From Halomonadaceae bacterium T82-2 (lineage in GTDB: Bacteria; Pseudomonadota; Gammaproteobacteria; Pseudomonadales; Halomonadaceae), in the NCBI GenBank assembly GCA_001577635.1, contig LSBP01000027.1, positions 1 through 47,004 on the forward strand: a stretch of DNA of 47,004 bases. Reading direction: 5' to 3'. This document shows, piece by piece, positions 4,984 to 40,590 of the stretch; position 1 is the first letter of the stretch; the number at the start of each line of letters is the position of its first letter. The translations under genes were made by a program, and so were the position numbers. The notes under the pieces are model-generated. The model was given only the letters and a program-made list of their open reading frames with translations. It ran no database searches and had not been told where the DNA came from.

Positions 4984-5000
4984 GCCGTTTTCCTCGTTAA

Positions 5001-5483
5001 TCACAATTGACGCCACAGCAGGCCCACCGGCAGCGGCACGTTCAGCACCACGGCGAACAGGGTGTAGAAAGCGCCGATAATGGCCGCCAGGGCGATGGCG
5101 TAGCCCCCGACGCGTCGCGGCGTCCAGGCGTGGTAATGCGCCAGCACGGCCAGCGCCGCGGCGCTGATCAGGCTCGCCGCCAGAAAGCCCAGCCACTTGA
5201 GCGCGAAGCTCCAGACCAGCATCACCGCGATCAGCCCCAGGCGCCGGCCGACGCTGCCCGGCTCGGGCCGCGCACGCCGCGGATGGACCACGAAGCTCTT
5301 GATCAGCAACGCCGCGCTGAAGACCAGCAGCAGCGTGGCGATGGTGCGCGGGAAGACGCTGGCCATGATCGACATGTCCCGGCTGAAGACGATCGCCCCG
5401 GTAGCGATGACGATCATCACCACGGCCAGCACGCGATCCGACGGACGGGCGTCGAGCGTCGACGTTTCGTGGTCAGTGGCCAT
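5001..5483 (-). CDS. slcF: Tripartite tricarboxylate transporter, small membrane subunit (TctB type)
   Basis: 160 residues with four hydrophobic segments (about 17-35, 40-60, 80-120 split in two, 130-150), the TctB/DUF1468 pattern. It begins inside the tctA end with an 11-bp overlap and precedes slcC by 17 bp. TctB partners TctA in a sodium-coupled secondary transporter fed by a periplasmic binding protein. The likely substrate is sulfolactate, from its place before slcC-comC. The SlcF name follows the C. salexigens slcHFG genes; gene order here is binding protein, large subunit, small subunit. Confidence 0.8.
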   Translation of the reverse strand: MATDHETSTLDARPSDRVLAVVMIVIATGAIVFSRDMSIMASVFPRTIATLLLVFSAALLIKSFVVHPRRARPEPGSVGRRLGLIAVMLVWSFALKWLGFLAASLISAAALAVLAHYHAWTPRRVGGYAIALAAIIGAFYTLFAVVLNVPLPVGLLWRQL

Positions 5484-6984
5484 TGGCGGTCTCCTTGGGT
5501 GAACGGGTGCGCCAGGCGCGCCACAGCGGGAAGAGCACCGAGAGCAGCACCAGCGCGATGATCGCCAACGACAGCGGCCGACCGAAGAAGGCGCCCATCA
5601 CCGAGCCGGAGGCATTGCCCATCAGGTAGCCCTGGACGAAGCCCTGCTCGGCGATCGGTCCCAGGATCAGCCCCAGCACGATCGGCGACGGCTTCACGCC
5701 GTAGCGCGACAGCACCCAGCCGACCACGCCCAGCACCACCATCACCACCACGTCGAAGGGATTGTTGCGGATGGCGTAGGTGCCGATGATGGTCATGAAG
5801 GCGATGCTCGGCACCAGCAGTGCCTTGGGGATGCTGACGATCGACTTGAAGGCATAACGGCCGATCAGCAGCCCGATGGGCAGCATCAGCAACGTGGCGA
5901 TGAACAGCCCGCCGATGAAGGTGTAGGTGACGCCGACATTGGTGGTGAACATCTCCGGCCCGGTGCGGAATCCCTGGACCAGCAGCGCACCCAGGATCAC
6001 CGCGTCGGGCGGTGTGCCCGGAATGCCCAGCACGAAGGTAGGGATGAAACCGCCGCCGACGGTGGCATTGTTGGCGGTCTCGGTGGCGATCACGCCGTCC
6101 GGCTCGCCCTTGCCGAACTGGTCACTGCGCGGCGAGGTGCGCCGGGCCTCGGAATAGGACACCAGGCTGGCAATCGAGCCGCCGGCCCCCGGCAGGATCG
6201 CCACGGCGGTGCCGATGATCGCGCTGCGCAGGGCATTGAACTTGCCCCGCCACATCAGCGAGAGCCCCTCGCCGAAGCGGATGCCGCGCCCCTCCTCGGG
6301 CGGCTCCAGGTGAGCGCTGGGTGTGGCCACCAGGTCGATCAGTACCGGGATGCAGTACAGACCGATCAGCGCCGAGATGGTCTCCACCCCGCCGAGCAGG
6401 AACTGCGAGCCGAAGGCATAGCGGATATCGGCGCCGATCACCGAGACCCCCACCGTGGACAGCAGCAGCCCCAGCCCGGCGCCGATGAAACCCTTGAGGG
6501 TCGAGCCCTCGGAGAGCGCCGAGATCAGCGTCAGGCCGAAGATCGCCAGCCAGAAGTATTCCACCGGCCCGAACTTCAGGGCGATCTGGGCCAGCAGCGG
6601 CGCCAGGGTCAGCAGCGCCACCGCGCCCACCAGCCCGCCGATCATCGATGACAGGGTCGACAGCGTGACCGCCAGATCGCCGTCGCCGCGCTTGGCCATG
6701 GGGAAGCCGTCGAAAGTCGTGGCGATCGCCGATGGCGTCCCCGGCGTGTTGACCAGGATCGCCGCGTAGGAACCGCCGTAGATGGCCCCGGTGTAGATCG
6801 CTCCCAGCATGATCAGCGCCGCCTCGGGCGGCATGCCGAAAGTCACCGGCACCAGTACCGCCACCGCCATGGTCGCCGACAACCCGGGCAGGGCCCCGAT
6901 GAGGATGCCGGCGGCAACCCCCACGATGGCCAGCATCAGGTTGATCGGGGACAGGGCGGCGGCCATGAAACTCAGGGTATCCAT
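5473..6984 (-). CDS. slcG: Tripartite tricarboxylate transporter, large permease subunit (TctA type)
   Basis: 503 residues, normal for TctA, with about a dozen membrane segments. The family block GALPGLSATMAVAVLVPVTF followed by GAIYTGAIYGGSYAAILVNT and PGTPSAIATTFDGFPMAKRG is complete, and the second PGTPPDAVILGALLVQGF repeat is present near residue 320. A strong ribosome site (GGAGGTAG) precedes ATG 6984. It forms the transport channel for a ligand delivered by the binding protein encoded 58 bp upstream, here probably sulfolactate. A very GC-rich hairpin separates the two genes. Confidence 0.9.
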   Translation of the reverse strand: MDTLSFMAAALSPINLMLAIVGVAAGILIGALPGLSATMAVAVLVPVTFGMPPEAALIMLGAIYTGAIYGGSYAAILVNTPGTPSAIATTFDGFPMAKRGDGDLAVTLSTLSSMIGGLVGAVALLTLAPLLAQIALKFGPVEYFWLAIFGLTLISALSEGSTLKGFIGAGLGLLLSTVGVSVIGADIRYAFGSQFLLGGVETISALIGLYCIPVLIDLVATPSAHLEPPEEGRGIRFGEGLSLMWRGKFNALRSAIIGTAVAILPGAGGSIASLVSYSEARRTSPRSDQFGKGEPDGVIATETANNATVGGGFIPTFVLGIPGTPPDAVILGALLVQGFRTGPEMFTTNVGVTYTFIGGLFIATLLMLPIGLLIGRYAFKSIVSIPKALLVPSIAFMTIIGTYAIRNNPFDVVVMVVLGVVGWVLSRYGVKPSPIVLGLILGPIAEQGFVQGYLMGNASGSVMGAFFGRPLSLAIIALVLLSVLFPLWRAWRTRSPKETANGH

Positions 6985-7042: not shown

Positions 7043-8026
7043 TCACTTGATGATGCCCATCTCGCGCGCGACCTTCTCGTACTCGGCGCGGCGCTTGGCC
7101 ATGAAGTCATCCATCTGGTCGTACGGCACGTCGATCAGCACGAAGCCCAGATCTTCCATCTTCTGGCGGAACTCGGGATTCTGGTTGATCTTGCCGAAGA
7201 TCTCGGAAAGCTTCTTCGTCACGTCCTCCGGCGTGCTCTTGGGCACCGCCATGCCGCGGTAGGCACCGCCGGTCATGTCATAACCGAGTTCCTTGAAGGT
7301 CGGCACGTCCGGGAACAACGGATGGCGCTCGTTGGCGGCCACCGCCAGCATGCGCACCTTGTCCTTGTGGTTGGCCGCGGTGGTGGTATAGCCCCACTCG
7401 GCCTGTACCTGGCCGCCGAGCAGCGCCGTGACCGCCGCCCCGGTGCCCTTGAAGGGGATGTAGGTGGTCTTGACGTCGGCCATGGACTCGAAGCGCCGAT
7501 TGGCGATGTCATTGGCCGACTGGGTCCCGCTACCCGAGACGGTGACGCTGCCCGGCGCCTTCTTGGCGGCGGCGATCAGGTCATCCAGGGTCTTGTAGGG
7601 GCTGTCCTTCTTGACGATCAGCGCGTCCGGCGAATAGTGGAAGTAGAAGAAGTTCTTCAGGTCCTCGGTCTTGAAGCCCGGGTCCTTGCCCATCGGCTTG
7701 AGGATGATGTGCGGCAGGTTGGTGCCCATGATGGTGTAGCCGTCGCCATCCATCTCGTTGAGCTGCGACCAGCCGACCGCGCCCCCGCCACCGGCCATGT
7801 ACTGGATGATCAGCTGCTGGCCGGTGATGTCCTGAAAGTACTTTTGTTGCAGGCGGGCGCTGATGTCCGACTCGCCGCCCGGGCCGAAGGGAATGATGTA
7901 CTGGATGTTGTGATCGGGGAAGGAGCCTGTATCGGCGGCCATGGCAGGGCCGGCGATGGCGGCGGCGCTGAGCAGCCCGCCCATGAGGGCGCCCAGTTTC
8001 CAGGTCGTGAAGCGTGTCTGGCGCAT
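7043..8026 (-). CDS. slcH: Tripartite transporter periplasmic binding protein (TctC/Bug family)
   Basis: 327 residues from ATG 8026, which is preceded by GGAGAC. A longer frame to 8113 exists, but only from 8026 is there a proper signal peptide: MRQTRFTTWKLG, a hydrophobic core, then cleavage after GPAMA. The mature protein shows the Bug pattern: IQYIIPFGPGGESDISARLQ, then QYMAGGGGAVGWSQLNEM near the ligand pocket, ending MDDFMAKRRAEYEKVAREM. It should bind sulfolactate (or a related carboxylate) in the periplasm and deliver it to SlcF/SlcG. It is the first gene of the slc operon, about 260 nt downstream of the predicted promoter at 8284-8324, with a CAA-rich leader. Confidence 0.85.
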   Translation of the reverse strand: MRQTRFTTWKLGALMGGLLSAAAIAGPAMAADTGSFPDHNIQYIIPFGPGGESDISARLQQKYFQDITGQQLIIQYMAGGGGAVGWSQLNEMDGDGYTIMGTNLPHIILKPMGKDPGFKTEDLKNFFYFHYSPDALIVKKDSPYKTLDDLIAAAKKAPGSVTVSGSGTQSANDIANRRFESMADVKTTYIPFKGTGAAVTALLGGQVQAEWGYTTTAANHKDKVRMLAVAANERHPLFPDVPTFKELGYDMTGGAYRGMAVPKSTPEDVTKKLSEIFGKINQNPEFRQKMEDLGFVLIDVPYDQMDDFMAKRRAEYEKVAREMGIIK

Positions 8027-8042
8027 GTTTCGTCTCCGATTC

Positions 8043-8062
8043 GGTTTGTTGCTGTTGTTGTG
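8043..8062 (-). promoter_or_regulatory. CAA-repeat leader upstream of slcH
   Basis: On the minus strand the leader reads CACAACAACAGCAACAAACC just ahead of the ribosome site. This fits the A-rich AAnAAnAA pattern bound by Hfq/Crc in Pseudomonas catabolite repression. The match is by eye. The remaining leader (8063-8283) carries no gene that I can support. Confidence 0.45.
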
Positions 8063-8283
8063 CTTCGGTATGGAGCGAGCCCGCGGGCCCGGCGACACAT
8101 CGCCCATCGCCATGTCGCGATGCGCGGTGTTGCTCTTGTCGTTCTTGGTTTACCGGCGGGCCGAACCCAGTATTGCGCATTCCGGCCTCACCGCGTTGTC
8201 TGTCGATCCTGTTCTTTGGTCTAGAGGATCTCGGCTTTTTTCGTCAGGCGATACCGCCCTGATGCATGACCGGCTTGCCTCGC

Positions 8284-8324
8284 CCTCAACTCATATATAT
8301 GACATAGTATATAAAACAGTCAAG
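8284..8324 (-). promoter_or_regulatory. Promoter/operator of the slc operon, overlapping the gntR ribosome site
   Basis: This 41-bp block is repeated at 18542-18582 upstream of suyA with three mismatches and the same orientation. Read on the minus strand it offers a -35 TTGACT (8323-8318) and, 18 bp on, a -10 TATATA (8299-8294). The interval contains an AT-rich near-dyad around ATGaCAT (TATATATG and CATAGTATA). On the plus strand it runs into the AAGGAG of gntR. The divergent GntR protein is the obvious candidate ligand, giving autoregulation as well. Confidence 0.75.
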
Positions 8325-8335
8325 GAGATGTCGGC

Positions 8336-9133
8336 ATGCCCTTTCCCCGGTATACTTCGGCCCACGACACATCCTCATCGCCAAGGACGACCCAGGCCCC
8401 CTCCAACATGAGTGCTCCGAAAAGCCCCACGTTTCAGCCCCTCTACCGGCAGATCAAGGACCTGCTGCTCGAGCGGATCACCGCCGGCGAATGGCCGCCG
8501 GGGACCTTCATCCCCAGCGAGGCCTCGCTGGCCGCCAGCTACAACGTCAGCGTCGGCACCCTGCGCAAGGCGCTCGACGAGCTGGTCACCGACAACGTCG
8601 TGATTCGTCGCCAGGGCAAGGGCACCGCCGTGGCCACCCACGATGCCGACCGGGCCCTGTTCCGCTTCTTCAACGTGGTACGTCGGGACGGTGAGCGCAG
8701 CCTGCCGGTCTCCCGGGTGCTGGGCCGCTCGCGCCGCCGGGCGACGGACGAGGAAGCCACGGCGCTGCAGCTCCCCGCGGACGCCGAGGTGATCCATATC
8801 CGGCGCATTCGCGAGCTGGAAGGCAAGCCGACCCTGCTCGAGACCATCGTGCTGGATGCCGGCACCTTCGCCACGCTCGAGCATCAGCCCGAGGTGCTGC
8901 CCAATACCCTCTATCAGCTCTATCAACAGCAGTTCGGCGCCACCGTCGCCCACGCCGACGAGCAGCTCGTGGCGGTGCGTGCCGACGATCAGGATGTGGC
9001 CCATCTAAGCGTGGAGCCCGGCGAGCCGTTGATCGAGATTCGCCGTGTCGCCCAGGACTATCAGGACCAGCCGCTGGAACTGCGCATCTCGCGGCTGGCG
9101 ACCAATGAGTACTGCTATGCCAGCCGGCTGTAA
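8336..9133 (+). CDS. GntR-family regulator with UTRA domain (HutC type)
   Basis: 265 residues from ATG 8336, chosen for the ideal AAGGAG eight bases upstream; ATG 8408 is a shorter alternative with no good ribosome site. The winged helix occupies about residues 35-95 (LYRQIKDLLLERITAGEWPP, SLAASYNVSVGTLRKALDEL, RQGKGTAV). A UTRA ligand domain follows (about 105-260), ending in PLELRISRLATN, typical of HutC/FarR members. It is divergent from slcHGF-slcC-comC. The sequence just ahead of its start recurs upstream of suyA, so it probably controls slc and suyAB in response to sulfolactate or a related metabolite. A repressor is usual for this family. The ligand is inferred. Confidence 0.9.
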   Translation: MPFPRYTSAHDTSSSPRTTQAPSNMSAPKSPTFQPLYRQIKDLLLERITAGEWPPGTFIPSEASLAASYNVSVGTLRKALDELVTDNVVIRRQGKGTAVATHDADRALFRFFNVVRRDGERSLPVSRVLGRSRRRATDEEATALQLPADAEVIHIRRIRELEGKPTLLETIVLDAGTFATLEHQPEVLPNTLYQLYQQQFGATVAHADEQLVAVRADDQDVAHLSVEPGEPLIEIRRVAQDYQDQPLELRISRLATNEYCYASRL

Positions 9134-9157
9134 CGCCCGGAATGAACGCGAACAATG

Positions 9158-9188
9158 ACACGGCCGCCGGGGATGCCGGCGGCCGTGT
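9158..9188. terminator. Hairpin between convergent gntR and hpsP
   Basis: ACACGGCCGCCGG (9158-9170) pairs perfectly with 9176-9188 over a five-base loop, in the 90 bp between two converging stop codons. No strong T run lies on either side. Its place and 13-bp stem suggest a shared terminator. Confidence 0.6.
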
Positions 9189-9223
9189 ATCGTTCATGGA
9201 AAGAAGATCGAACGGGATCGATG

Positions 9224-10213
9224 TCAGGGAGTGAGCACGATCTTAGCGGCGGCGGTACGCCCCGCGGCCAGATCGGCAAAGGCATCGGCACCGTCGGCGA
9301 GCTGACGGATCTCGACCCACTCGAGGCTGCCGAGGGCCTTGGACGCCAGCAGGTCGACCGTCGCCCGCAGGTCGTTCTGCGTGTAGGTGTAGGCGCCGAG
9401 GAAGGTGACTTCCTTGAGGGTGAGGCTGCGCACGTCCAGCGGCCCGTCGTTGTCCTGCAGGCCCAGGTGCATCACCGCCCCGCCAGGGCGCACCGCCTGG
9501 ATCGCCATCGAGCGCGTCGCCGAGGCTCCCACGCAGTCGAATACCGCCTCGATGCTGTCGGCGTCGACGGCGGTGTCGCGCGGATCGATCACCGTCAACC
9601 CCGCTTTCTCGGCGGTCTCGCGGCGCAGCGGATTGGTGTCCGCCAGGGTCAGTCGGCGTACGCCGCGCTGACGCAGCATCAGGCCGACCAGCAGCCCCAC
9701 CGCCCCGGCACCGATCACCAGCGCATTGGCCTCGGCCAGCGGCCGGGTGAGGCTGCGCTCCAGGCGGTTGATGGCGTGCAGCGCCGTCGCCGCCGGCTCG
9801 GTGAGCGCCGCGGCCACCGGCTCCAGGTCCTCGGGCAGCTCGATCAGGCAGTGATCCGGCACCACCACGCTCTCGGCGAAGGTGCCGGGCCGGTTCATCC
9901 CCAGCATGGTGCGGTTGCTGCACAGGTTCTGGCGGCCCTCGAGGCAGTAGTCGCAGTGGCCGCAGACCACCAGCGGGTTCATGGTCACCCGCTTGCCGGC
10001 CAGCGCCCCCTCGATGACCTCGCCGGCCGCTTCGTGACCGAGGATCATCGGCGGCACCCGACGCGGGTCGTGGCCGTGGTAGGCATGCAGGTCGGAGCCG
10101 CAGATCCCGGTCGCCAGGATGCGCACCCGCGACTCGCCGGCAGCCAGCGGCGGCACCTCGGTCTCGCGGATCTCGAGCCGATCGGGGCCCGTATAGAAAA
10201 GCGCTTGCATCAT
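9224..10213 (-). CDS. hpsP: Zinc-dependent alcohol dehydrogenase, predicted DHPS 2-dehydrogenase
   Basis: 329 residues of the medium-chain dehydrogenase family. Catalytic zinc ligands lie in GICGSDLHAYHG and GHEAAGEV, a structural zinc loop in CGHCDYCLEGRQNLC, and the Rossmann motif in VIGAGAVGLLVG. ATG 10213 follows GGAGGAACAC. It is third in an hpsN-hpsO-hpsP run, 19 bp after hpsO. In Cupriavidus pinatubonensis HpsP and HpsO oxidise and reduce opposite enantiomers of 2,3-dihydroxypropane-1-sulfonate at C2 and so act together as a racemase. The function is assigned from that gene order; the fold alone gives only a polyol or threonine-type dehydrogenase. Confidence 0.8.
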   Translation of the reverse strand: MMQALFYTGPDRLEIRETEVPPLAAGESRVRILATGICGSDLHAYHGHDPRRVPPMILGHEAAGEVIEGALAGKRVTMNPLVVCGHCDYCLEGRQNLCSNRTMLGMNRPGTFAESVVVPDHCLIELPEDLEPVAAALTEPAATALHAINRLERSLTRPLAEANALVIGAGAVGLLVGLMLRQRGVRRLTLADTNPLRRETAEKAGLTVIDPRDTAVDADSIEAVFDCVGASATRSMAIQAVRPGGAVMHLGLQDNDGPLDVRSLTLKEVTFLGAYTYTQNDLRATVDLLASKALGSLEWVEIRQLADGADAFADLAAGRTAAAKIVLTP

Positions 10214-10232
10214 GTGTTCCTCCAGTGAGTCG

Positions 10233-10994
10233 CTAGCGCGCGGTAAAGCCGCCGTCGACGAACAGCGTCTGCCCGGTGACGTAGGCCGAGGCCGGCGAGG
10301 CGAAGAAGACCGTGGGCCCGGCGATATCCTCCAGGGTACCGTTGCGGCCGATCGCGGTGCGCGCCGCCAGCTCGCGGGTGCGTTCCGGGTCGTCGAACAG
10401 CGAGGCGGTCAGCTCGGTGGGAAAGAAGCCGGGAGCGATGGCGTTGGCGTTGATGCCGTCCCGCGACCAGGCCTCGGCCATCGCCCGGGTCAGCTGGACG
10501 ATGCCGCCCTTGCCGGCGCCGTAGGGCGCACTGTCCGGGAAGGCGCGCTGTGACTGCAGCGACGCCAGGTTGATGATGCGCCCGTAGCCACGCTCGCGCA
10601 TGCCGGGCACCAGGGCCCGGGCGAGAAAGAACGGCGTGCCCAGATGCAGCTGCAGGGTCAGGTTCCAGCTGGCCAGGTCCACCTCGTCGATGGGCTGGCG
10701 CAGGTTGACCCCCGCCGCGTTGACCAGCACCGTGACCGGGCCGAAGGGCTCGGCGGCGCGCTGTGCCACGCTCTCGAGTGCGGCCGCATCGGCGAGATCG
10801 GCGACCAGGGCGGCCGCACGACCGCCCTCCTGCTCGATGGCCGCCACCGTGTCGTCGAGCGCGGCTCGCCGCCGCGCCGCGACCACCACCGCGGCCCCGG
10901 CGGCGGCCAGCGCCTGGGCCATGCCCCGGCCCAGTCCGCTGCTGCCGCCGGTGACCAGCGCCACCTGCCCCGTGAGATCGAAGGCCGGGCGCAT
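10233..10994 (-). CDS. hpsO: Short-chain dehydrogenase, predicted DHPS 2-dehydrogenase
   Basis: 253 residues, a classical SDR. It has cofactor motif TGGSSGLG near residue 16, NAAGVN near 91, the catalytic Ser in NLASLQSQ, and YGAGKGG with the catalytic Tyr and Lys; PGFFPTELT and TGQTLFVDGGF close the fold. It begins one base after the hpsN stop. Partner of HpsP in interconverting the DHPS enantiomers through the 2-keto form, so that all substrate becomes available to HpsN. The residue after the first glycine pair does not reveal NAD or NADP preference with certainty. Confidence 0.8.
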   Translation of the reverse strand: MRPAFDLTGQVALVTGGSSGLGRGMAQALAAAGAAVVVAARRRAALDDTVAAIEQEGGRAAALVADLADAAALESVAQRAAEPFGPVTVLVNAAGVNLRQPIDEVDLASWNLTLQLHLGTPFFLARALVPGMRERGYGRIINLASLQSQRAFPDSAPYGAGKGGIVQLTRAMAEAWSRDGINANAIAPGFFPTELTASLFDDPERTRELAARTAIGRNGTLEDIAGPTVFFASPASAYVTGQTLFVDGGFTAR

Positions 10995-10995
10995 G

Positions 10996-12417
<1,422 letters not shown>

Positions 12418-12464
12418 TTTTGACGATGACCGATCTCTTGCGTGACCGGTCGCTCGCCTCCTCA

Positions 12465-13772
12465 TCACAGCGCCCACGTCGACAGCCAGGGCACGAAGGC
12501 CACCAGCAGCACCACGATCAGCATGCCGATGACGAACGGCACCGCGTGTCGCGCCACCGCCAGCACCGAACAGCGCGTCAGTCCGGACACCACGAACAGG
12601 TTGAGCCCCAGCGGCGGCGTGATGAAGCCCAGCCCCAGCGTCGTCACCATCAGGATGGCGAAGTGGAACTCGTTCATGCCCGCCTGCTGCGCCAGCGGCA
12701 GCAGCAACGGCGAGAGGATGACGATGTTGGGCGTGGTCTCCATGACGCAACCGGCCAGCACCAGGATGCCGATCATCATCAGGATGATCAGGGTCGGCGA
12801 GTCGGTCATCGCGCTCACCCCGCCGACCAGGGTCTGCGGAATGTTGAGACTCGACAGCGTCTGCGCCAGGGGCAGCGAGACGGCGATGATCGGCACGATC
12901 ACCCCGCAGACCCGCGCCGAGGACTCGAGCATCCGCGGGATGTCGCCCAGCACCAGGCGCTTCTGCAGCAGGCCGATGATCACCACCACCACCACGGCCA
13001 CTGCCGCCGCCTCGGTGGGCGTGAAGATGCCCGAGTAGATGCCGCCGAGGATCACCACCGGCACGAACAGCGCCCAGCGGGCGTCCCAGACCGTGCTCAG
13101 CCAGCGCCGCCAGGAAAACGGCGACTTCTCGGCCTCGTAGCCATAGCGGCGGTTGATCAGCATGTTGGTGAGCATCACCGACATCATCACCAGCACCCCG
13201 GGGATCGCCGCCGCCAGGAACAGCGTGGAGGCGGACATGCCCAGCACCAGCCCCATCACGATGTAGGCGATGGAGGGCGGGATCAGGATGCCGGTACAGG
13301 CCCCCGACGCTACCAGCGCACAGGCTGCGGGCAGCGGATAGCCGCGATCGACCAGGCGATGGATGGTCATCCGCCCCACCGCCGCCGCCCCCGCGGCATC
13401 CGAGCCCGAGATGCAGGCGAAGAAGCCGCAGCCGAGGGTGGTCGAGTTGCCCAGCCCGGTCCGCAACCCGCCGACCGTGGCCTCGGCCACATCGAGCAGC
13501 TTGTCGGACAGCCCCGATCGCACCAGGGCATCACCGGTCAGGATGAACAGCGGGACCGCGATCAGCGCGAAGGCATTGATGCCGTCGAAGAGCGCCTCGC
13601 CGAACACCGACAGCGGCAGCGTATCGGTCAGCGTCAGCATGCCCAGGGCGCCCAGGCCGATCGAGACCCACACCGGCACCCCGAGCGCGATCATCGCCAC
13701 CAGCAATCCAAGCGGCAGATAGAAGGTCCAGTCCAGCGACGACACGGCCTGCTGTGCAGCGAGAAATTCCAT
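12465..13772 (-). CDS. hpsM: TRAP transporter large permease (DctM type)
   Basis: 435 residues with about twelve membrane segments, the normal DctM length. Family landmarks include FDGINAFALIAVPLFILTGD, STTLGCGFFACISGSDAAGA, the IPPSIAYIVMGLVLG segment, and FHFAILMVTTLGLGFITPPL with GLNLFVVSGL at the end. It is 11 bp downstream of the small subunit gene. It forms the sodium-coupled channel of a TRAP importer with the two genes upstream. Since hpsN lies directly downstream, DHPS is the expected substrate (HpsKLM system). Confidence 0.88.
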   Translation of the reverse strand: MEFLAAQQAVSSLDWTFYLPLGLLVAMIALGVPVWVSIGLGALGMLTLTDTLPLSVFGEALFDGINAFALIAVPLFILTGDALVRSGLSDKLLDVAEATVGGLRTGLGNSTTLGCGFFACISGSDAAGAAAVGRMTIHRLVDRGYPLPAACALVASGACTGILIPPSIAYIVMGLVLGMSASTLFLAAAIPGVLVMMSVMLTNMLINRRYGYEAEKSPFSWRRWLSTVWDARWALFVPVVILGGIYSGIFTPTEAAAVAVVVVVIIGLLQKRLVLGDIPRMLESSARVCGVIVPIIAVSLPLAQTLSSLNIPQTLVGGVSAMTDSPTLIILMMIGILVLAGCVMETTPNIVILSPLLLPLAQQAGMNEFHFAILMVTTLGLGFITPPLGLNLFVVSGLTRCSVLAVARHAVPFVIGMLIVVLLVAFVPWLSTWAL

Positions 13773-13783
13773 GCGTCACCTCC

Positions 13784-14350
13784 TCAATCGAAAAGCTTGT
13801 TGCCGTCGAACGGTGGCTGGCCCCGGCGCATGCGCTGGATGTCCATCACCATCGACTGGACAACCCGCCCCGCCACGACCAGAAAGCCCAGCGGGATCGC
13901 GGCCAGGAAGATCGCCTGCGAGACCCGCAGCCCCGGCGTCACCGAGCCGAACTGCAGCGAGGTCAACACCGGCGACAGCGAGAGCCACAGCGCCCACACG
14001 GCCAGCACCAGCGTGGCGATGTCCGACAGCCACCAGGCCAGCCGGCGGACCCGAGGTCCGCCGAGGTTGACCAGCACGTCGATGCGAATGTGCGCACGGT
14101 CCCTGACCGCGGCGGCCGCAGCGATCCATGCCAGGTAGATGAAGGCATAGCGCGACAGCTCCTCGCCCCAAACGGACGAATAGTCGAGCAGGAAGCGACG
14201 CAGCACCTCAACCGACACGGTGGTGATGATCAGGGCGTAGAACGTCAGCAGGATCCAGCGCTCGACCCGACGATCGAGGATCGCGAACCGGTCGCCCCAT
14301 GAGCGGCGTTGCGGCTTTTTCTCAGACATTGCTGTCGACGTGATAGCCAT
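13784..14350 (-). CDS. hpsL: TRAP transporter small permease (DctQ type)
   Basis: 188 residues with four membrane segments and the DctQ signature GEELSRYAFIYLAWIAAAAA followed by VRDRAHIRIDVLV. ATG 14350 follows GGGGGTG and overlaps the end of the binding protein gene by 29 bp; ATG 14329 would overlap by 8 bp and is also possible. Partner of HpsM and the binding protein in DHPS import. Confidence 0.85.
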   Translation of the reverse strand: MAITSTAMSEKKPQRRSWGDRFAILDRRVERWILLTFYALIITTVSVEVLRRFLLDYSSVWGEELSRYAFIYLAWIAAAAAVRDRAHIRIDVLVNLGGPRVRRLAWWLSDIATLVLAVWALWLSLSPVLTSLQFGSVTPGLRVSQAIFLAAIPLGFLVVAGRVVQSMVMDIQRMRRGQPPFDGNKLFD

Positions 14351-15506
14351 TTGACACCCCCGTCGCCTCCAGCAACGCGTTGAAGTTGTCCATCGATCCG
14401 GCCAGCTGGACCTTGAGGTCGTTCCAGGTCTCCAGCTGATGACCGCACTTGGCCTTCCACTGGGCGATTTCGTCCTCGGTCGGCGAATAGATGTCGATGC
14501 CGGCGTGGCGCATCTCGTAGTAGGCGTAGGCCCGCGCCGCCGGCACCTTGGCCAGGTTCTCGCGGAAGGTCACGTCGGAGGCGCGCATGATGGCGTCCTG
14601 AACGTCCTTGGGCCGAGCGTCGAACCACTGCTTGTTGCAGGTGTAGACCTGAGCATCGGGTACCGACTGGATGGTCGAGATCGACGCCAGCACATCGGTG
14701 AAGCCATAGACGAACAGCGCCTGAACGCTGGGATCCAGCGCATCCGCCACGCCCTGCTTCATCGCCGAGGAGGTCTCGCCCCAGGCCACGGGCGTCGGGT
14801 TGGCGCCGGCCAGCTTGTAGACCTTCTGCAGGATCTGCGAGGACGGCACGCGAAACTTGATGCCACGAATGTCGTCGGGAGTGCGCACCGGATGGTCGAG
14901 CAGCCCCTTGCGCACGGCCACCGTCCGCGGGTCGATGCAGACGTAGGACAGCACCTTGAAGCCGCGATCCTCGACCTTGCCGTGCACCACGTCCTTCCAG
15001 GTGTCGGAGGTGACCAGGTTGATCAGGTGCTGGTTCTCCCCGCACCAGTAGGGAATGTTGATCAGATCAACCTCCGGCGCGAATGCCGACAGGTTCGACA
15101 TCGAGTGCTGGGCCATGGCGATGGTGCCGTTCTGCACCTTGGTGATCAGGGCACCGCCGGCACCCAGCTGGCCGCCCGGCTGCAGGCGCACGTAGAGCTT
15201 GCCGCGGCTGAAGTTCTGCAGGTTCTCCTTGAAGTTGAGCTGCATGATCGGATAGGCGCGCGAGGCCCCGAGCCGATAGCCGGTGGCCATGACCAGCACC
15301 GTGTCCGCGGCCTTTTCACGCTCGGCTTCCTCCTGGGAGATGGCGGCCATGGCCGATTCCGAGAACAGGCTGCCGCCGAGCGCACCGATCAGGGCGGTCG
15401 TGAAACCATAGCGCCCCACCATGTTCAGGAAGTGACGACGCTCGGGACGCTGTGGCTCGGCGTTGTCGCCGGACGTGCGTGTGAAGAGTCTGGATTGGCG
15501 TAGCAT
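14322..15506 (-). CDS. hpsK: TRAP transporter solute-binding protein (DctP type) with Tat-like signal
   Basis: 394 residues. The N-terminus has a long basic stretch, then RRHFLNMVGRYGFTTALIGA, a twin-arginine-like signal rather than a plain Sec signal, and AMA before the mature protein. DctP features: YPIMQLNFKENLQNFSRGKL, PGGQLGAGGALITKVQNGTI, and the binding-site Arg region IRGIKFRVPSSQILQKVY. ATG 15506 follows CAGGAG. It should capture 2,3-dihydroxypropane-1-sulfonate in the periplasm for HpsL/HpsM; the ligand is inferred from the downstream hps genes. Export in folded form would be unusual but is known for some TRAP binding proteins. Confidence 0.85.
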   Translation of the reverse strand: MLRQSRLFTRTSGDNAEPQRPERRHFLNMVGRYGFTTALIGALGGSLFSESAMAAISQEEAEREKAADTVLVMATGYRLGASRAYPIMQLNFKENLQNFSRGKLYVRLQPGGQLGAGGALITKVQNGTIAMAQHSMSNLSAFAPEVDLINIPYWCGENQHLINLVTSDTWKDVVHGKVEDRGFKVLSYVCIDPRTVAVRKGLLDHPVRTPDDIRGIKFRVPSSQILQKVYKLAGANPTPVAWGETSSAMKQGVADALDPSVQALFVYGFTDVLASISTIQSVPDAQVYTCNKQWFDARPKDVQDAIMRASDVTFRENLAKVPAARAYAYYEMRHAGIDIYSPTEDEIAQWKAKCGHQLETWNDLKVQLAGSMDNFNALLEATGVSNGYHVDSNV

Positions 15507-15514
15507 GCTGAAGC

Positions 15515-15528
15515 TCCTGTGTTGTTAT
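15515..15528 (-). promoter_or_regulatory. CAA-type leader of hpsK
   Basis: The minus strand reads ATAACAACACAGGAG just upstream of ATG 15506, an A-rich Hfq/Crc-like motif overlapping the ribosome site. Identified by eye. Confidence 0.4.
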
Positions 15529-15570
15529 CGTGGTGCTGCATGGTGGATTTTCGGCCACCCACCTGGCCCG

Positions 15571-15777
15571 CTACTCGAGTCGGATGCAGGCCGTGATGAA
15601 GCAGGCGACGGCCGCTACGAGCAGCAGCGCCTCTTCCGCCGGTGACAGCGTGAAAAGCGTGATTCCGGCGCTTTCCAGGGCCACTCGGGCGAGAAAGACC
15701 GCCATCAGCAGGCCCGCGACGATCAGCAGGATATGACCGTGGCGCCGATGGGGCGTGGGGTTCGTCGTCTGCATCAT
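15571..15777 (-). CDS. Small two-helix membrane protein, first gene of the TRAP operon
   Basis: 68 residues: a short polar N-terminus, a hydrophobic helix at about 15-35 (HILLIVAGLLMAVFLARVAL), a short loop with TLSPAEE, and a second helix at about 48-64. ATG 15777 has AGGAGAGG upstream, so translation looks real. It precedes hpsK by 64 bp and follows the divergent LacI promoter, placing it first in the transporter transcript. I do not recognise a named family. An accessory TRAP subunit or a small sulfonate-cluster membrane protein (as reported for some taurine and DHPS clusters) are possibilities, not conclusions. Confidence 0.7.
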   Translation of the reverse strand: MMQTTNPTPHRRHGHILLIVAGLLMAVFLARVALESAGITLFTLSPAEEALLLVAAVACFITACIRLE

Positions 15778-15785
15778 GCCTCTCC

Positions 15786-15798
15786 TGTTGTTGTTGTG
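15786..15798 (-). promoter_or_regulatory. CAA-repeat leader of the 68-residue membrane protein
   Basis: The minus strand reads CACAACAACAACAGGAGAGG directly upstream of ATG 15777, with three CAA repeats touching the ribosome site. It is one of the clearest Hfq/Crc-like motifs in the window. Confidence 0.5.
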
Positions 15799-15803
15799 TG
15801 GCC

Positions 15804-15834
15804 GCTTACAAGTCCTTATTGTAAGCGCTTACAA
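15804..15834. promoter_or_regulatory. LacI-type operator between the regulator and the TRAP operon
   Basis: TTGTAAGCGCTTACAA at 15819-15834 is identical to the site at 12402-12417. An adjacent half site, GCTTACAA, lies at 15804-15811. Both sit in the 176 bp between the TRAP operon start (15777) and the lacI-type gene start (15954), so one protein could control both directions. The half site may support cooperative binding. Confidence 0.85.
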
Positions 15835-15953
15835 TCAAGCTACTCTCAAAGCTAGTCAAGGGGCCATGCGCTGTCCAGTTAGACGTTCGTCAACATGACT
15901 GGGGCCTGCCGGACGCGGATGGTACGCTCAAGCAAACGCTCAAGAGGCTCATC

Positions 15954-16991
15954 ATGAACAGGGATGCCAAACGCACGTTGCTCCAGGACGTCGCCCGGGA
16001 AGCCGGCGTCTCCACGGCGTCGGTGTCGCGGGTACTCAACCGGGCACCGCATGTCAGCGAGCGGCTGCGCAGCCGTGTCGAGGCGGCGATAAACAGCCTC
16101 GGCTACGTGCCCGACGGCACGGCCAGGGCTCTGGCCTCGCGGCGCATCGGCGCCATCGGCGCGCTGGTGCCGACACTCGACAATCCCGTGTTCAGCGCGA
16201 TGATCGACAGCCTCGAGCAACGCCTCAAGCAGTACGACTGCCGGCTGCTGATCGCCACCTATCGCTACCGTCTCGACGAGGAAGTCGAGTCGCTGCGCAC
16301 CCTGATCCAGCAGGGCATCGACGGGGCGGTGCTGATCGGCCACGATCACCTCCCCGCCACGCTGGAGCTGTTCCGGCGTCACGAGGTGCCCTACCTGACC
16401 TGCTGGCACAGCGAGGAGGACCCGGACTGGCCGAGCATCGGTTTCGACAACGCCGCCCCGGCTCGTCACCTGGCCGAACACCTGATCCAGCTGGGGCACC
16501 GCCGGTTCGGCGTCATCTCGGCGCCCGCCGACGGCAACGACCGCGCCCGCGCTCGCCTGACGGGCTTTCGTCAGGCGCTCGAGGCCGCCGGACTCGACCT
16601 GCCCGACGACCATGTCGTCACCGTCGAGTACGGCATCGAGGAAGGGGCGGCGGCGTTCGCCGACCTGATGCGGCTCACGCCCCGCCCCACGGCGATCCTC
16701 TGCGGCAATGACGTGCTGGCGTTCGGGGCCATGTTCGCCGCGGCGCAGGCGGGCATCGCGATTCCCGACGACCTGTCGATCACCGGGTTCGACGACCTGC
16801 CGCAATCGCGCTTCATGCACCCGGCGCTGACCACCGTCGCCGCCCCCTCCGCCGAGGTGGGCCGACTGGTGGCCGACACCCTGGTCGCCCGCATCCGCGG
16901 TGACCAGACACCCCATCGTCAGGTGCTCGAGGCGCAGGTGGTGCTGCGGGGCACCACGGCCCCGCCGCTGCACGAGACGCAGCCGGCATGA
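15954..16991 (+). CDS. LacI-family transcriptional regulator of the hps genes
   Basis: 345 residues. The N-terminal helix-turn-helix and hinge are complete (LLQDVAREAGVSTASVSRVL near residues 9-28, then a Leu-containing hinge ARALASRRIGAIGALVP). The rest is a periplasmic-binding-protein-like effector domain ending in ITGFDDLPQSRFMHPALTTV. ATG 15954 follows AGAGG. It is divergent from the TRAP genes and flanked by a perfect LacI-type palindrome found again before hpsN. The expected role is repression of the hps transporter and dehydrogenase units, relieved by DHPS or a metabolite. The effector is inferred. I give no symbol because I am not sure which regulator family hpsR denotes elsewhere. 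Confidence 0.88.
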   Translation: MNRDAKRTLLQDVAREAGVSTASVSRVLNRAPHVSERLRSRVEAAINSLGYVPDGTARALASRRIGAIGALVPTLDNPVFSAMIDSLEQRLKQYDCRLLIATYRYRLDEEVESLRTLIQQGIDGAVLIGHDHLPATLELFRRHEVPYLTCWHSEEDPDWPSIGFDNAAPARHLAEHLIQLGHRRFGVISAPADGNDRARARLTGFRQALEAAGLDLPDDHVVTVEYGIEEGAAAFADLMRLTPRPTAILCGNDVLAFGAMFAAAQAGIAIPDDLSITGFDDLPQSRFMHPALTTVAAPSAEVGRLVADTLVARIRGDQTPHRQVLEAQVVLRGTTAPPLHETQPA

Positions 16992-17043
16992 GGCAGCTCG
17001 TCGCTGCCCCATCCGCCGTCCGTGCACCTCGCAGCCCATCGCC

Positions 17044-18213
17044 TTACGCACTCTCGTACAGACGCGTGAACACGAACTCCCGGTGTCCCAGTGCCTCGGC
17101 GCTGGTATTCCGGCCGTTGGCCGTGCGCAGCAGCATTTCCAGCAGCTGATCTCCCGCCTCCGGCATGTTGATTTCGCGGCGCAGCAGACCCGAGACATCG
17201 ACGTCGATGTGCTCGCCCATGGTGCGCACCGTGCGCGGGTTGGCGCAGATCTTGATCACCGGCAGGATCGGGTTGCCGATCACGTTGCCCTGCCCGGTCG
17301 GGAAGAAGTGCGCCACGTAGCCGGAAGCCGCGCACAGCGTCACCATCTCGGCGGCCGCCGACGAGGAATCCATGAACCACAGCCCCGGACCGGTGGGTGT
17401 CTCGGCCTTGTCGAGAACGCCGTCGACCCGGCATTCCTTGCCGATCTTCTGAATGTTGCCCAGCGCCTTTTCCTCGATGGTGGTCAGCCCGCCCTCGATG
17501 TTGCCCTTGGTGGGCTGCGACTCGGACAGGTCGCTGGTCTTGTGACGGTCGATCATCGCACTGTAGCGGTCGAACATCGCCTGGAACTCCTCGCGCACCT
17601 TATCGTTGGCGCAGCGCGCAGCCACCAGATGCTCGCCGCCGGTGAGCTCGGAGGTCTCGCCGAACACCAGGGTGCAGCCCTCGGCGTAGAGCTTGTCGAA
17701 GGCATCGCCGACGGTGGGGTTGGCGCCGCACCCGGAGGTGGTGTCGGATTCACCGCACTTGGTGGAGACCCACAGCTCGCCGATGTCGCACGGCTCGCGC
17801 TGCAGCTCGGTGGCGTACTGCACGAACTCGCGGGCCTTGCGCGAGGCCGCGGCGATGGTGTTGTGGTCGCCGTTCTGCTCGATCCAGAAGCCTTCCACCG
17901 GCTTGCCGGTGGCCCGGATGCCGTCGACCACCTTGCCGGTCCAGCCGGGCTCGATGCCGATCACGATCACCGCGGCGACGTTGGGGTTGGAGCCGGTGCC
18001 GATCAGGGTACGGAAGTGCAGGTCCAGGTCGGCGCCGAACTGCAGGCGACCGTAGGGGTGCGGCAGCGCCAGCGTGCCCTTGATGTTGTTGGCCACCGCT
18101 TCCGCCGCGGCATTGGAGATGTCGTCCACCGGCAGCACGATCACGTGGTTGCGGATGCCGACCCGGCCGTTGTCCCGACGATAGCCCAGGAAGGTACGTC
18201 CCTTGAGTTCCAT
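17044..18213 (-). CDS. suyB: (2R)-sulfolactate sulfo-lyase, beta subunit
   Basis: 389 residues from ATG 18213, with AGGTGG just upstream; GTG 18222 is an unlikely alternative. It is a UxaA/altronate-dehydratase-type C-domain protein: [19 protein letters not shown] at the start, [38 protein letters not shown] with conserved Cys, and [20 protein letters not shown]. SuyA and SuyB cleave (R)-sulfolactate to pyruvate and sulfite. The start is two bases after the suyA stop, as expected for a two-subunit enzyme. It closely resembles in my memory the C. salexigens enzyme, and the surrounding slc and hps genes support it over altronate or galactarate dehydratase. Confidence 0.93.
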
Positions 18214-18215
18214 GC

Positions 18216-18500
18216 TTACCACCTCTTGGTCTTGACGTTGTGAACGTGAACGTGCTCGCCCTGGCGAATCGGCTTCACGACCCGCCCGATGTCGACGCTG
18301 TACTTGATCACCGTCTCGCCCTCGGCGAGATCGCGGATCGCCAGCTTGTGGCCGATCGGGATCGCGTCCTTGACCTCGAACTGCAGGGTCTTGTCCTGAT
18401 CCATGACCCAGCCGGTCAGCGTCTGACCCGCCTGGACCCCTTCCACCACCACCACGCCGACCGCGTCGTCGGCATCGTGGACCACGAAATCGATGCTCAT
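18216..18500 (-). CDS. suyA: (2R)-sulfolactate sulfo-lyase, alpha subunit
   Basis: 94 residues, a SAF/UxaA N-domain small subunit. Residues [19 protein letters not shown] at the start, [20 protein letters not shown] in the middle and [19 protein letters not shown] at the end are the family hallmarks. ATG 18500 follows AAGGAGAGGAG. It pairs with SuyB to release sulfite from (R)-sulfolactate, the desulfonation step of this locus. The promoter 42 bp upstream is nearly identical to that of the slc operon, and a CAA-repeat motif abuts the ribosome site. Confidence 0.93.
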
Positions 18501-18510
18501 GCTCCTCTCC

Positions 18511-18519
18511 TTGTTGTTG
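18511..18519 (-). promoter_or_regulatory. CAA-repeat leader of suyA
   Basis: The minus strand reads GCAACAACAAGGAGAGGAGC before the ATG. From memory it resembles the AACAACAAGAGG Hfq/Crc site of Pseudomonas amiE. Translational catabolite repression of the desulfonation enzyme is inferred. Confidence 0.5.
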
Positions 18520-18541
18520 CCCGAGCGACGCCTTGGTGTCG

Positions 18542-18582
18542 CCTCAACTCATGTATATGACATAGTATATAGGACAGTCAAG
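18542..18582 (-). promoter_or_regulatory. Promoter/operator of suyAB
   Basis: Matches 8284-8324 at 38 of 41 positions (differences at 18553, 18572 and 18573). On the minus strand: -35 TTGACT (18581-18576), 18-bp spacer, -10 TATACA (18557-18552), start predicted about 45 nt before suyA. The spacer holds the same near-dyad around ATGaCAT. A second small dyad, CAATCT and AGATTG (18583-18599), lies just upstream. Confidence 0.8.
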
Positions 18583-18727: not shown

Positions 18728-19618
18728 TCAGCGGGATTCGAGCAGGAAGACCTTGAAGGCCTGCCAGAGGGGGCTGCGATAGCGTTCGGGGTGCCAGACC
18801 AGCGAGAAGGCCCGGGTCAGCTGCAGGGGCGACGGCAGGGCCACCAGTTCGCCGCGCTCGAGCTCGCCGGCCACGCTCAGCCGGGACAGGCAACCCAGGC
18901 CGAAGCCGGCACGCACGGCCTGCTTGATCGCCTCGTGCTGATCGAGCTCCATGCGCACGCGGATGCGCTCGACATGGGAATGAATTGCCGCCTCGAAGAT
19001 CGAACGCGTCCCCGAGCCTGGCTCGCGCAGGATCCACTGCGCCGACTGCAGTGCCTCGGCATCCAGCGCCTCGCGTTGCGCGAATGGGTGCTGCGGGCCG
19101 GCGACCACCACCATCTCGTCCTGGCGCCATACCTCGCTGATCAGCCGTGACTCGGTGCACTGCCCCTCGATCAGCCCCAGATCCGCGTCGAAACGCAGAA
19201 TGTCGCGCATCACGTCTTCGGTGTTGCGCAGGCGCAGCTGCAGATCCACCCCGGGATGCTGCTCGATGAAGCGCCCGGCCAGGGTCGGCAACAGGTAGGT
19301 GCCGATCGTCGCGCTGGCGGCCACATGCAGCGTTCCCCGCAGCTCCCCTTCCGGCTCGCGCGCGGCGACGACCAGGTCATCGACCCCGTTGAGCACCTTC
19401 TCGGCGTGAGGAAGCAGGCGAAGCGCCGCGTCGTTGAGCTCGAGCCGTCGTCCCAGCCGCTCGAAGAGCACCACGCCGAGCTGGCGCTCCAGATCCGCCA
19501 ACGCCTGACTGGTGGCCGATGGCGACAGGCTGAGATGGCGTGCCGCGGCACTGACGGTACCGAAGCGCACCACGGCGACGAAGACCTGCAATTGACGAAA
19601 GGTGATGGGGGGCAGCAT
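18728..19618 (-). CDS. LysR-family regulator, YeiE/CbbR-like
   Basis: 296 residues with an N-terminal LysR helix-turn-helix (TFRQLQVFVAVVRFGTVSAA, then SLSPSATSQALADLERQLGV) and an effector domain of two lobes (GTLHVAASATIGTYLLPTLA, EPGSGTRSIFEAAI). ATG 19618 faces the YeiH-type gene 112 bp away, an arrangement seen for yeiE-yeiH in enterics, where YeiE is reported to respond to sulfite. It probably activates the exporter when sulfite or sulfate builds up from SuyAB; the effector is inferred. Confidence 0.85.
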   Translation of the reverse strand: MLPPITFRQLQVFVAVVRFGTVSAAARHLSLSPSATSQALADLERQLGVVLFERLGRRLELNDAALRLLPHAEKVLNGVDDLVVAAREPEGELRGTLHVAASATIGTYLLPTLAGRFIEQHPGVDLQLRLRNTEDVMRDILRFDADLGLIEGQCTESRLISEVWRQDEMVVVAGPQHPFAQREALDAEALQSAQWILREPGSGTRSIFEAAIHSHVERIRVRMELDQHEAIKQAVRAGFGLGCLSRLSVAGELERGELVALPSPLQLTRAFSLVWHPERYRSPLWQAFKVFLLESR

Positions 19619-19642
19619 ACGGTTCTACTTAACAGTCATTTC

Positions 19643-19658
19643 GTTATTATCCAATAAC
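19643..19658. promoter_or_regulatory. Dyad in the LysR/YeiH divergent promoter
   Basis: GTTATT (19643-19648) and AATAAC (19653-19658) are perfect 6-bp arms around ATCC, and contain the T-N11-A signature of LysR sites. It lies 25 bp upstream of the LysR gene in an AT-rich stretch and suits a site controlling both directions. Confidence 0.6.
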
Positions 19659-19730
19659 ACATATCGCTATTCCCGTTTAGCCTATCGAGCAATATAACGA
19701 CGACATCGTCAGATACGGGAGAGCGCAATC

Positions 19731-20729
19731 ATGTGGCAAGGACTGATACTCTGCGCCGGCCTGACCCTCGGCGGGTTCCTGCTGGCCCATGCACCCGGCA
19801 TCGCCGACAGCGGGATCAGCCCGCTGGTCTTCTCGCTGCTGCTCGGCCTGGTGATCGGCAACCTGCCCTTCATCGGCCGCCTGCCTCAGGCACGGCCGGG
19901 ACTGCAGTTCGCCACCCGCTGGCTGCTGCGCAGCGGCATCGTGCTGTTCGGCCTGTCACTGACCCTCCAGCAGGTGCTGGGCCTCGGTCCCAAGGTGATC
20001 CTGCTCGACACCCTGGTCATCACCACCGTGCTGGTGGTCGGCTACTGGGCGGGCACGCGCCTGCTGGGACTCGATCGCGAGACGGCGCTGCTGACCAGTG
20101 CCGGCAGCGCGATCTGCGGCGCCGCCGCCGTACTGGCAACCGAAACCACGATCCGCTCGAAGCCGGCGGCCACCTCGATGGCGGTGGCCACCGTGGTGCT
20201 GTTCGGCTCGCTGGCGATGCTGGTCTATCCGCTGCTCTATCCGCTCACCGGCATGGATGAAGGACTGTTCGGCATCTACATCGGCGCCACCGTGCATGAA
20301 GTGGCCCAGGTGGTCGCCGCCGGTGATGCGGTCGGCCCGCAGGCACTGGCCAATGCGGTGATCGTCAAGCTGGTCCGGGTCATGCTGCTGGTGCCCTTCC
20401 TGCTGGTGGTCGGCCAATGGTGGATCCGCAGCCGGGCAGCCGATGACACGACGGAGGTGGCCCGCGGCGGGCTGGTGATCCCGTGGTTCGCCTTCGGCTT
20501 CCTGGCGGTGGTGATCTTCAACAGCTTCATCGTCCTGCCCGCGCCGCTTCACGAAGGTCTGGTGGTGATCGGCCAGATCGCCCTGGCCATGGCGATGGCG
20601 GCCCTGGGCTTCGAGACACGCCTGGAAAAGCTCAAGGCGCTGGGCATCAAGCCGTTCCTGCTGGCGCTGGGACTGTTTGCCATGCTGATCGGCGGCGGCA
20701 TGCTGGTCACCCCGCTGCTGATGAGCTGA
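19731..20729 (+). CDS. yeiH: YeiH-family putative sulfate/sulfite exporter
   Basis: 332 residues, almost entirely hydrophobic, with about ten membrane helices: the UPF0324/YeiH family. Landmarks are GISPLVFSLLLGLVIGNLPF, RSGIVLFGLSLTLQQVLGLG, SAGSAICGAAAVLATETTIR and IYIGATVHEVAQVVAAGDAV. GGGAGAG precedes the ATG. Family members occur next to sulfonate-degrading genes and are proposed to export sulfite or sulfate. Here it lies 1.2 kb from suyAB, which makes sulfite. Divergent from its LysR gene and closed by a strong terminator. Transport direction and ligand are inferred. Confidence 0.85.
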   Translation: MWQGLILCAGLTLGGFLLAHAPGIADSGISPLVFSLLLGLVIGNLPFIGRLPQARPGLQFATRWLLRSGIVLFGLSLTLQQVLGLGPKVILLDTLVITTVLVVGYWAGTRLLGLDRETALLTSAGSAICGAAAVLATETTIRSKPAATSMAVATVVLFGSLAMLVYPLLYPLTGMDEGLFGIYIGATVHEVAQVVAAGDAVGPQALANAVIVKLVRVMLLVPFLLVVGQWWIRSRAADDTTEVARGGLVIPWFAFGFLAVVIFNSFIVLPAPLHEGLVVIGQIALAMAMAALGFETRLEKLKALGIKPFLLALGLFAMLIGGGMLVTPLLMS

Positions 20730-40475: not shown

Positions 40476-40506
40476 CCCCTTGTTACGGCTGCCGTCCCCG
40501 GCTCAG

Positions 40507-40568
40507 CCAGCGGACGGCGTCGGTGGGAGCTTGCCAGCGGACGGCGTCGGTGGGAGCTTGCCAGCGGA
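40507..40568. repeat. 27-bp tandem repeat downstream of liuE, REP-like
   Basis: The unit CCAGCGGACGGCGTCGGTGG plus GAGCTTG occurs at 40507-40533 and 40534-40560, then begins a third time at 40561-40568 (CCAGCGGA). It contains GTGGGAGCTTGC, the type of motif seen in Pseudomonas REP sequences. It lies in the 115 bp between the convergent liuE and LysR genes. A longer plus-strand reading frame across it repeats PADGVGGSL and is not a real gene. Confidence 0.7.
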
Positions 40569-40590
40569 AGGCAGGCTCAAAGGCTGCGGG

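Follow-up and report, generated by a model that had tools for sequence, protein, structure and literature searches.

Two putative promoter blocks with a built-in operator probably link sulfolactate transport and desulfonation genes to one GntR-family regulator in a Halomonadaceae bacterium

The window, a stretch of 47,004 nucleotides (contig LSBP01000027.1, positions 1 to 47,004 of the forward strand) from Halomonadaceae bacterium T82-2, contains two nearly identical 41-bp blocks, one upstream of a gene cluster for sulfolactate uptake and isomerisation (slc) and the other upstream of the lyase genes suyAB. Sequence comparison makes it highly probable that each block combines a sigma-70 promoter and, embedded in it, an operator to which the GntR/UTRA protein of 8408-9133 would bind; this protein would repress slc and suyAB, and the comparison suggests that one repressor, encoded between the blocks, works both copies. 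A preliminary description of this DNA had predicted that sulfolactate uptake, isomerisation and desulfonation form a single GntR regulon, and this prediction is well supported by the co-occurrence of gntR and suyB, by sites that follow their target genes, and by the covariation of operator and recognition helix. Gene names used here were assigned from domains, gene order and general knowledge.

In the proposed mechanism, the promoter runs leftwards from a -35 TTGACT over an 18-bp spacer to a -10 TATAYA, and the operator would consist of the near-palindrome TCATRTATATGA, which contains the -10, plus conserved sequence towards the -35. A bound dimer would block RNA polymerase at both promoters, giving joint repression of slc (uptake and two sulfolactate dehydrogenases) and suyAB (the sulfite-releasing lyase), until a pathway compound, most likely sulfolactate, binds the UTRA domain and releases the repressor. 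Once suyAB had become separated from gntR, as in this genome, each operon would have its own copy of the site.

Anatomy of the two blocks

8284-8324, minus strand: copy 1, putative promoter/operator block, promoter directed left into tctC (slc operon)
18542-18582, minus strand: copy 2, putative promoter/operator block, promoter directed left into suyA
8291-8302, unstranded: putative operator core of copy 1, TCATATATATGA, a perfect 12-bp palindrome
18549-18560, unstranded: putative operator core of copy 2, TCATGTATATGA, with one mismatched pair
8318-8323, minus strand: predicted -35 TTGACT of the slc promoter
8294-8299, minus strand: -10 candidate TATATA of the slc promoter, within the palindrome, 18-bp spacer
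18576-18581, minus strand: predicted -35 TTGACT of the suyA promoter
18552-18557, minus strand: -10 candidate TATACA of the suyA promoter, within the palindrome, 18-bp spacer

The two copies differ at 3 of their 41 positions (12, 31 and 32) and are embedded in unrelated flanking DNA, which confirms the near-identity reported previously; the GC content of the block is 29%, against 66% for the window. Other 41-mer pairs with three or fewer differences are confined within the window to four overlapping pairs near 40.5 kb, the members of each 27 bp apart, and such a pair was obtained in none of ten first-order Markov simulations of the window. Those four overlapping pairs, at 40504-40574, look like a tandem repeat. 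The genome (3.42 Mb, 55 contigs) was scanned for further copies, as had been proposed, and BLAST with copy 1 returned these two blocks only. A scan with an 18-mer (at most three mismatches) also gave two copies, a result that is weak on its own because the reversed control likewise gave two forward matches. The core TCATNTANATGA is found at three places in the genome, namely in both blocks and once within an open frame on contig C2, with no match for the control.

Over 35 sites, conservation reaches its maximum in the near-palindrome TCATRTATATGA, of which the dyad lies between 8296 and 8297; 10 of its 12 columns carry 1.67-1.72 bits and the other two 0.87 and 1.01, while the 15 columns beyond each end carry 0.05-0.6 bits only. 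A second conserved stretch reaches to GTCAAG, the -35 as seen on the minus strand. A correction concerns the -35 TTGACT and the AT-rich -10 of the preliminary description: since both elements lie on the minus strand, the shared promoters would fire left, copy 1 towards tctC (open reading frame start at 8113) and copy 2 towards suyA (start at 18500, minus strand), and not towards gntR.

Distribution of the site among Halomonadaceae

The family set comprised 275 Halomonadaceae genomes. GntR matches at an E value of 1e-40 or better were obtained in 60 of these, 29 of them close (at least 57% identity) and the others at 37-43%, and SuyB matches in 32, of which 31 were at least 85% identical and one (G109, omitted from the co-occurrence count) 35%. 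All 29 genomes with a close gntR fall within the 31 that have suyB at 85% or above; a close gntR was not found in the remaining two (G014 and G063), in both of which suyB lies near a contig start.

Layouts were compared over stretches of up to about 32 kb around gntR in all 29 genomes, i.e., the window and 28 relatives. In 23 genomes gntR lies next to suyA and is transcribed away from it; tct, slcC, and comC usually come after suyBA, and a 41-bp matrix detected one site between gntR and suyA in all 23. In the other six (the window, G153, G143, G189, G155, and G113) suyAB is split from gntR, and each of the six has two sites, the first in the interval from gntR to tctC (to slcC in G113), the second ahead of suyA. 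The sites are oriented towards the structural genes in both layouts, and all 28 relatives have a site upstream of gntR. Matrix scores were 52-75 bits for all sites except the weak gntR-side site of G113 (34 bits) and the site of G203 (36 bits), and no further separate sites were detected by this matrix in the 29 regions, the secondary matches in G113 and G203 overlapping the same spot. The number of sites goes with the layout (Fisher 2e-6, uncorrected for kinship), which is what a site obliged to accompany each target operon predicts. The commonest layout, in which suyAB diverges from gntR with one shared site, is probably ancestral.

A search of the 275 genomes with the 16-mer TCATRTATATGAYATA gave 27 matches, all within about 400 bp of gntR or suyB, as compared to two matches for the reversed control. 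It is present in 21 of the 29 gntR-positive genomes and in 0 of the 246 others (counts uncorrected for kinship), and the eight other gntR-positive genomes carry variants of it. Because the pattern was derived from these very sites, the strength of this result lies in its absence elsewhere. Moreover, a word related to the 12-bp core (at most one mismatch) occurs upstream of dctP in 6 of the 29 genomes; among 19 Halomonas examined, a word was found at this place in 11, in six by the core, in nine by a flanking word chosen afterwards, and in four by both, so that a site at the hps cluster of other Halomonas is only a lead.

The regulator and its predicted operator words

8408-9133, plus strand: gntR, GntR/UTRA (HutC-subfamily) regulator, probable start at codon 25 of the open reading frame beginning at 8336
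8351-8356, plus strand: -10 candidate TATACT of gntR, right of the block

The gntR product combines an N-terminal GntR helix-turn-helix domain (4e-20) with a C-terminal UTRA domain (1.9e-29). Its best solved relatives are DasR and YvoA, and none of the 21 NCBIfam families listed for it reached its own cut-off. A contig scan for GntR relatives confirmed 157, and the results beyond the family concern the best 80 of these; the closest named genome among them is that of Modicisalibacter tunisiensis, of which the regulator is 98% identical.

Outside the Halomonadaceae, Pseudomonas fluorescens and Stutzerimonas loci (L128 and L156) have the full site directly in front of gntR, its core carrying one mismatch. 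In all eight Enterobacterales loci (L136, L139-L143, L153, and L154) gntR and suyA are apart, and the intergenic region between suyA and a divergent hpsN holds two exact cores, one on each side. None of these eight has an exact core at gntR, where the best word has one mismatch in L141 and two or three in the others. By these positions, Enterobacterales and possibly some Halomonas would have placed their hps genes under the same site. Orthologues in Rhodobacteraceae (L157-L184) mostly adjoin suyAB or comC, and the palindrome AACTATATAGTT is found upstream of gntR in 21 of 28 such loci, which have a VAVGT recognition helix. Deeper relatives carry TCTTATATAAGA, the core of the published operator of the regulator SdhR as given in the part of PMC4494728 consulted.

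A gntR start at 8336, behind the AAGGAG at 8322-8327, was judged unlikely for want of codon-position bias in the extension: in six genomes, divergence at the three codon positions is 0.52, 0.45, and 0.51 in the extension, against 0.13, 0.10, and 0.43 from codon 25 on. Eight genomes share this layout, from which G153 (a near-duplicate of the window) and G189 (no ATG at this place, stop present) were omitted. Codon 25 (ATG 8408) is invariant across 28 aligned proteins, G133, a match with an internal stop, being left out of the alignment. An AAGGAG followed by an ATG in frame does, however, occur in 7 of the 29 genomes; in the window this AAGGAG stands at the right edge of copy 1 with only its AAG inside the shared block, and a role as ribosome site of gntR is improbable, although no clear ribosome site was found before 8408 in the window. 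A hexamer located 19-29 nt right of the block matches TATAAT in at least 5 of 6 positions in all 29 genomes (shuffles: about 4.5 of 29), and gntR transcription probably begins from just right of the block. The view that the block ends in the ribosome site of gntR could therefore not be upheld, as the extension lacks a coding pattern and the -10-like hexamer follows the block in every genome.

Simple autoregulation, also predicted previously, did not gain support either, given the separate -10-like hexamer of gntR and the Enterobacterales loci, all eight of which are devoid of an exact core at this gene; autorepression by occlusion is not predicted because the distance from the core to the gntR transcription start downstream of it would be about 65 bp. 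The same observations make it unlikely that GntR activates slc and suyAB, or that it represses slc/suy while strongly controlling its own gene. Such roles would suit a gntR gene that adjoins copy 1, with a promoter that would abut that of slc, but the core lies over the predicted -10 and not upstream of the -35, and the gntR -10 candidate is situated about 55 nt to its right.

The operator word and the recognition helix vary together. In 81 regulator sequences (the window and 80 loci, with one mismatch allowed near gntR), a VSQGT or VAQGT helix goes with the word TCTT in 14 of 15 cases, VSVGT or VSIGT with TCAT in 36 of 38, and VAVGT with CTAT in 21 of 28. Two of the 36 fit TCAT and TCTT equally and seven of them rest on a site elsewhere in the locus; in the other 10 of the 81 the scanned stretch holds none of these words. 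A helix paired with the word of another helix type was not observed among the 81, the two double fits excepted. This covariation bears on a second alternative, according to which the block is a conserved strong sigma-70 promoter only, with the regulator acting elsewhere or another protein, e.g., the LysR encoded next to suyA, controlling both operons. The block indeed holds a -35/-10 pair, and a LysR gene is located near suyA or gntR in 9 of the 29 family loci, including the window. However, the best-conserved part is the palindrome with its flank, beyond the two hexamers, the word changes together with the helix of GntR, and 20 of the 29 loci have the site and no LysR relative in the stretch compared, which renders this alternative improbable.

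The weakest alternative, that the blocks arose recently as a repeat, through a mobile element or gene conversion, and have no regulatory meaning, would account for their near-identity and unrelated flanks, but it has hardly any probability left, being already contradicted by a genome-wide count of two copies, by the recurrence of both at these promoters across genera, and by copy-specific letters that point to separate descent. At positions 31-32, five genomes with this layout have A-A or T-A in copy-1 sites and G-G or T-G in copy-2 sites, and because these letters differ consistently by copy, the two copies descend separately; concerted evolution was rejected on the same lineage-specific letters. 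A dispersed repeat at unrelated loci, named in the preliminary description as what would refute its proposal, was likewise rejected on the BLAST result, the core counts, and the 16-mer matches, which are at gntR and suyAB only. Tandem duplication would be expected to leave traces of a second, since lost, gntR or suyA next to the copies, and short-word BLAST of the flanks of the six split genomes gave no cross match.

Several observations weigh against a promoter with a built-in GntR operator. The TTGACT-18-TATAYA pair was picked by eye, looking for sigma-70 hexamers at a spacing of 16-18 bp, and in both copies a consensus scan prefers another minus-strand pair (9 of 12 matches), made up of TATACT and a -35 that falls beyond the shared block, so that the -10 could sit about 12 bp further upstream; the TTGACT-TATAYA pair is preferred here because the alternative -35 is not common to both copies and TATACT is lost in most Halomonas sites. 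The GTCAA stretch of the -35 is altered in 4 of the 29 genomes (G194, G197, G203, and G260), and the core TCATRTATATGA departs from the HutC consensus GTMTAKAC, in which GT and AC are 4 nt apart. The Pseudomonas locus L129 has its full site 875 nt upstream of gntR, at a contig edge, and the Rhodobacteraceae orthologues have another palindrome, with none of the words in 7 of the 28 that have the AV helix. Finally, the operator words and the 16-mer were picked after inspection, and the covariation reflects few independent events because the words need about two changes on the tree.

Known systems, gene setting, and significance

The closest known operator found is that of SdhR, a HutC-subfamily GntR regulator with the operator TCTTATGTCTTATATAAGACATAAGA (PMC4494728). 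It has the dyad position, the AT-rich centre, and a tandem box (GACATAAGA for SdhR, GACATAGTA here, and GACATATGA in many Halomonas) in common with the site described here; copy 1 has 8 mismatches in 26 positions to it (0 of 2000 shuffles as good), and the 9 mismatches of copy 2 were matched by 7 of 2000 shuffles. The two systems differ in the half-site (TCTT for SdhR, TCAT here), and in the helix (VSQGT and VSVGT, respectively), and SdhR is linked to succinate dehydrogenase genes, whereas the present regulator adjoins slc-, hps-, and suy-like genes. The SdhR 14-mer GTCTTATATAAGAC was found in 0 of the 275 family genomes. Two loci, L198 and L199, have an SdhR-type operator core flanked by sdhC, sdhA, and a malate/lactate-dehydrogenase-family gene, and regulators 43-44% identical to the query; judged from neighbours and operator, these would be SdhR itself. 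With other members of the HutC subfamily (HutC, NagR/YvoA, DasR, and PhnF) the present regulator shares the GntR helix-turn-helix and UTRA domains, and its operator lacks their GT-4-AC consensus, a rule to which the consulted part of PMC4494728 records exceptions, SdhR among them.

The sulfolactate cluster of Chromohalobacter salexigens, with its SlcHFG transporter (Denger and Cook 2010, cited in PMC5812351 and PMC11131964), has the same gene content as far as the consulted parts of these papers describe it: a tripartite tricarboxylate transporter (TTT), two opposed dehydrogenases, and SuyAB. Neither paper describes a regulator or operator for that cluster in those parts. An operator for SuyAB-type breakdown of sulfolactate or dihydroxypropanesulfonate is likewise not described among the literature matches listed, nor in the portions consulted of PMC5812351, PMC11131964, PMC12421959, PMC4334477, PMC4494728, and PMC3223726. 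As far as these matches and portions show, the operator is unreported and its regulator is of a known (HutC) type; the operator may already have been predicted in RegPrecise, the store of the PMC4494728 regulons.

The genes surrounding the blocks in the window are as follows.

7043-8113, minus strand: tctC-like solute-binding protein, first gene of the slc cluster (slcHFG-type TTT transporter)
5473-6984, minus strand: tctA-like transporter subunit
5001-5483, minus strand: tctB-like transporter subunit
4054-5196, minus strand: slcC-like 2-hydroxyacid dehydrogenase, putative (S)-sulfolactate dehydrogenase
3053-4057, minus strand: comC-like Ldh_2 dehydrogenase, putative (R)-sulfolactate dehydrogenase
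2155-2919, minus strand: HpaI-like aldolase gene, far end of the slc cluster
18216-18500, minus strand: suyA-like small subunit (SAF domain), putative
17044-18222, minus strand: suyB-like large subunit (galactarate/altronate dehydratase-like), putative
9224-15506, minus strand: hps-type cluster (alcohol dehydrogenase, short-chain dehydrogenase/reductase, histidinol-dehydrogenase-like HpsN, tripartite ATP-independent periplasmic transporter DctMQP), by likeness for dihydroxypropanesulfonate
15954-16991, plus strand: LacI-family regulator, divergent from the hps cluster
18728-20729: LysR gene (minus strand) and divergent gene for a PF03601 (YeiH-like) membrane protein (plus strand), adjoining suyA

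The best NCBIfam model for the comC-like protein is sulfolac_dhydr, at 203 bits under a cut-off of 500, and SuyB shares 80% identity with a plasmid protein of Cupriavidus pinatubonensis whose annotation is only UxaA family hydrolase. In the stretches compared, the HpaI-type aldolase gene is limited to the window genome and G153 among the 29. Counting the window, nine of the 29 family genomes have the LysR and PF03601 genes near gntR/suyAB, as do three Pseudomonas/Stutzerimonas loci; the membrane protein possibly exports the released sulfite. No copy of the 41-bp site was found in the hps cluster of this genome. The LacI-family gene at 15954-16991 is perhaps the cluster's own regulator, and breakdown of dihydroxypropanesulfonate is probably under separate control here, because the hps cluster is without the site and the LacI gene diverges from it.

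In a tree of the regulators, 66 rows including the window are split from 15 deeper rows that include L198 and L199, with a Shimodaira-Hasegawa-like approximate likelihood ratio (SH-aLRT) of 99; this is a quick tree in which long branches meet, with a midpoint root only. A tentative reading, with a little less than an even chance of being right, is that an SdhR-type repressor lineage was recruited to organosulfonate catabolism and was rewired by one or two residues of the recognition helix, giving a readable operator code. In this code, Gln to Val or Ile would accompany the change from TCTT to TCAT, and Ser to Ala plus Val would accompany AACTATATAGTT, in the sulfolactate regulons of Halomonadaceae, Pseudomonas, Enterobacterales, and Rhodobacteraceae.

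Sulfolactate and dihydroxypropanesulfonate hold an important place among natural organosulfur compounds. With a defined site the regulon would become countable in any genome, and the site might serve as a biosensor part; it would moreover represent a case of an operator and its regulator changing together.

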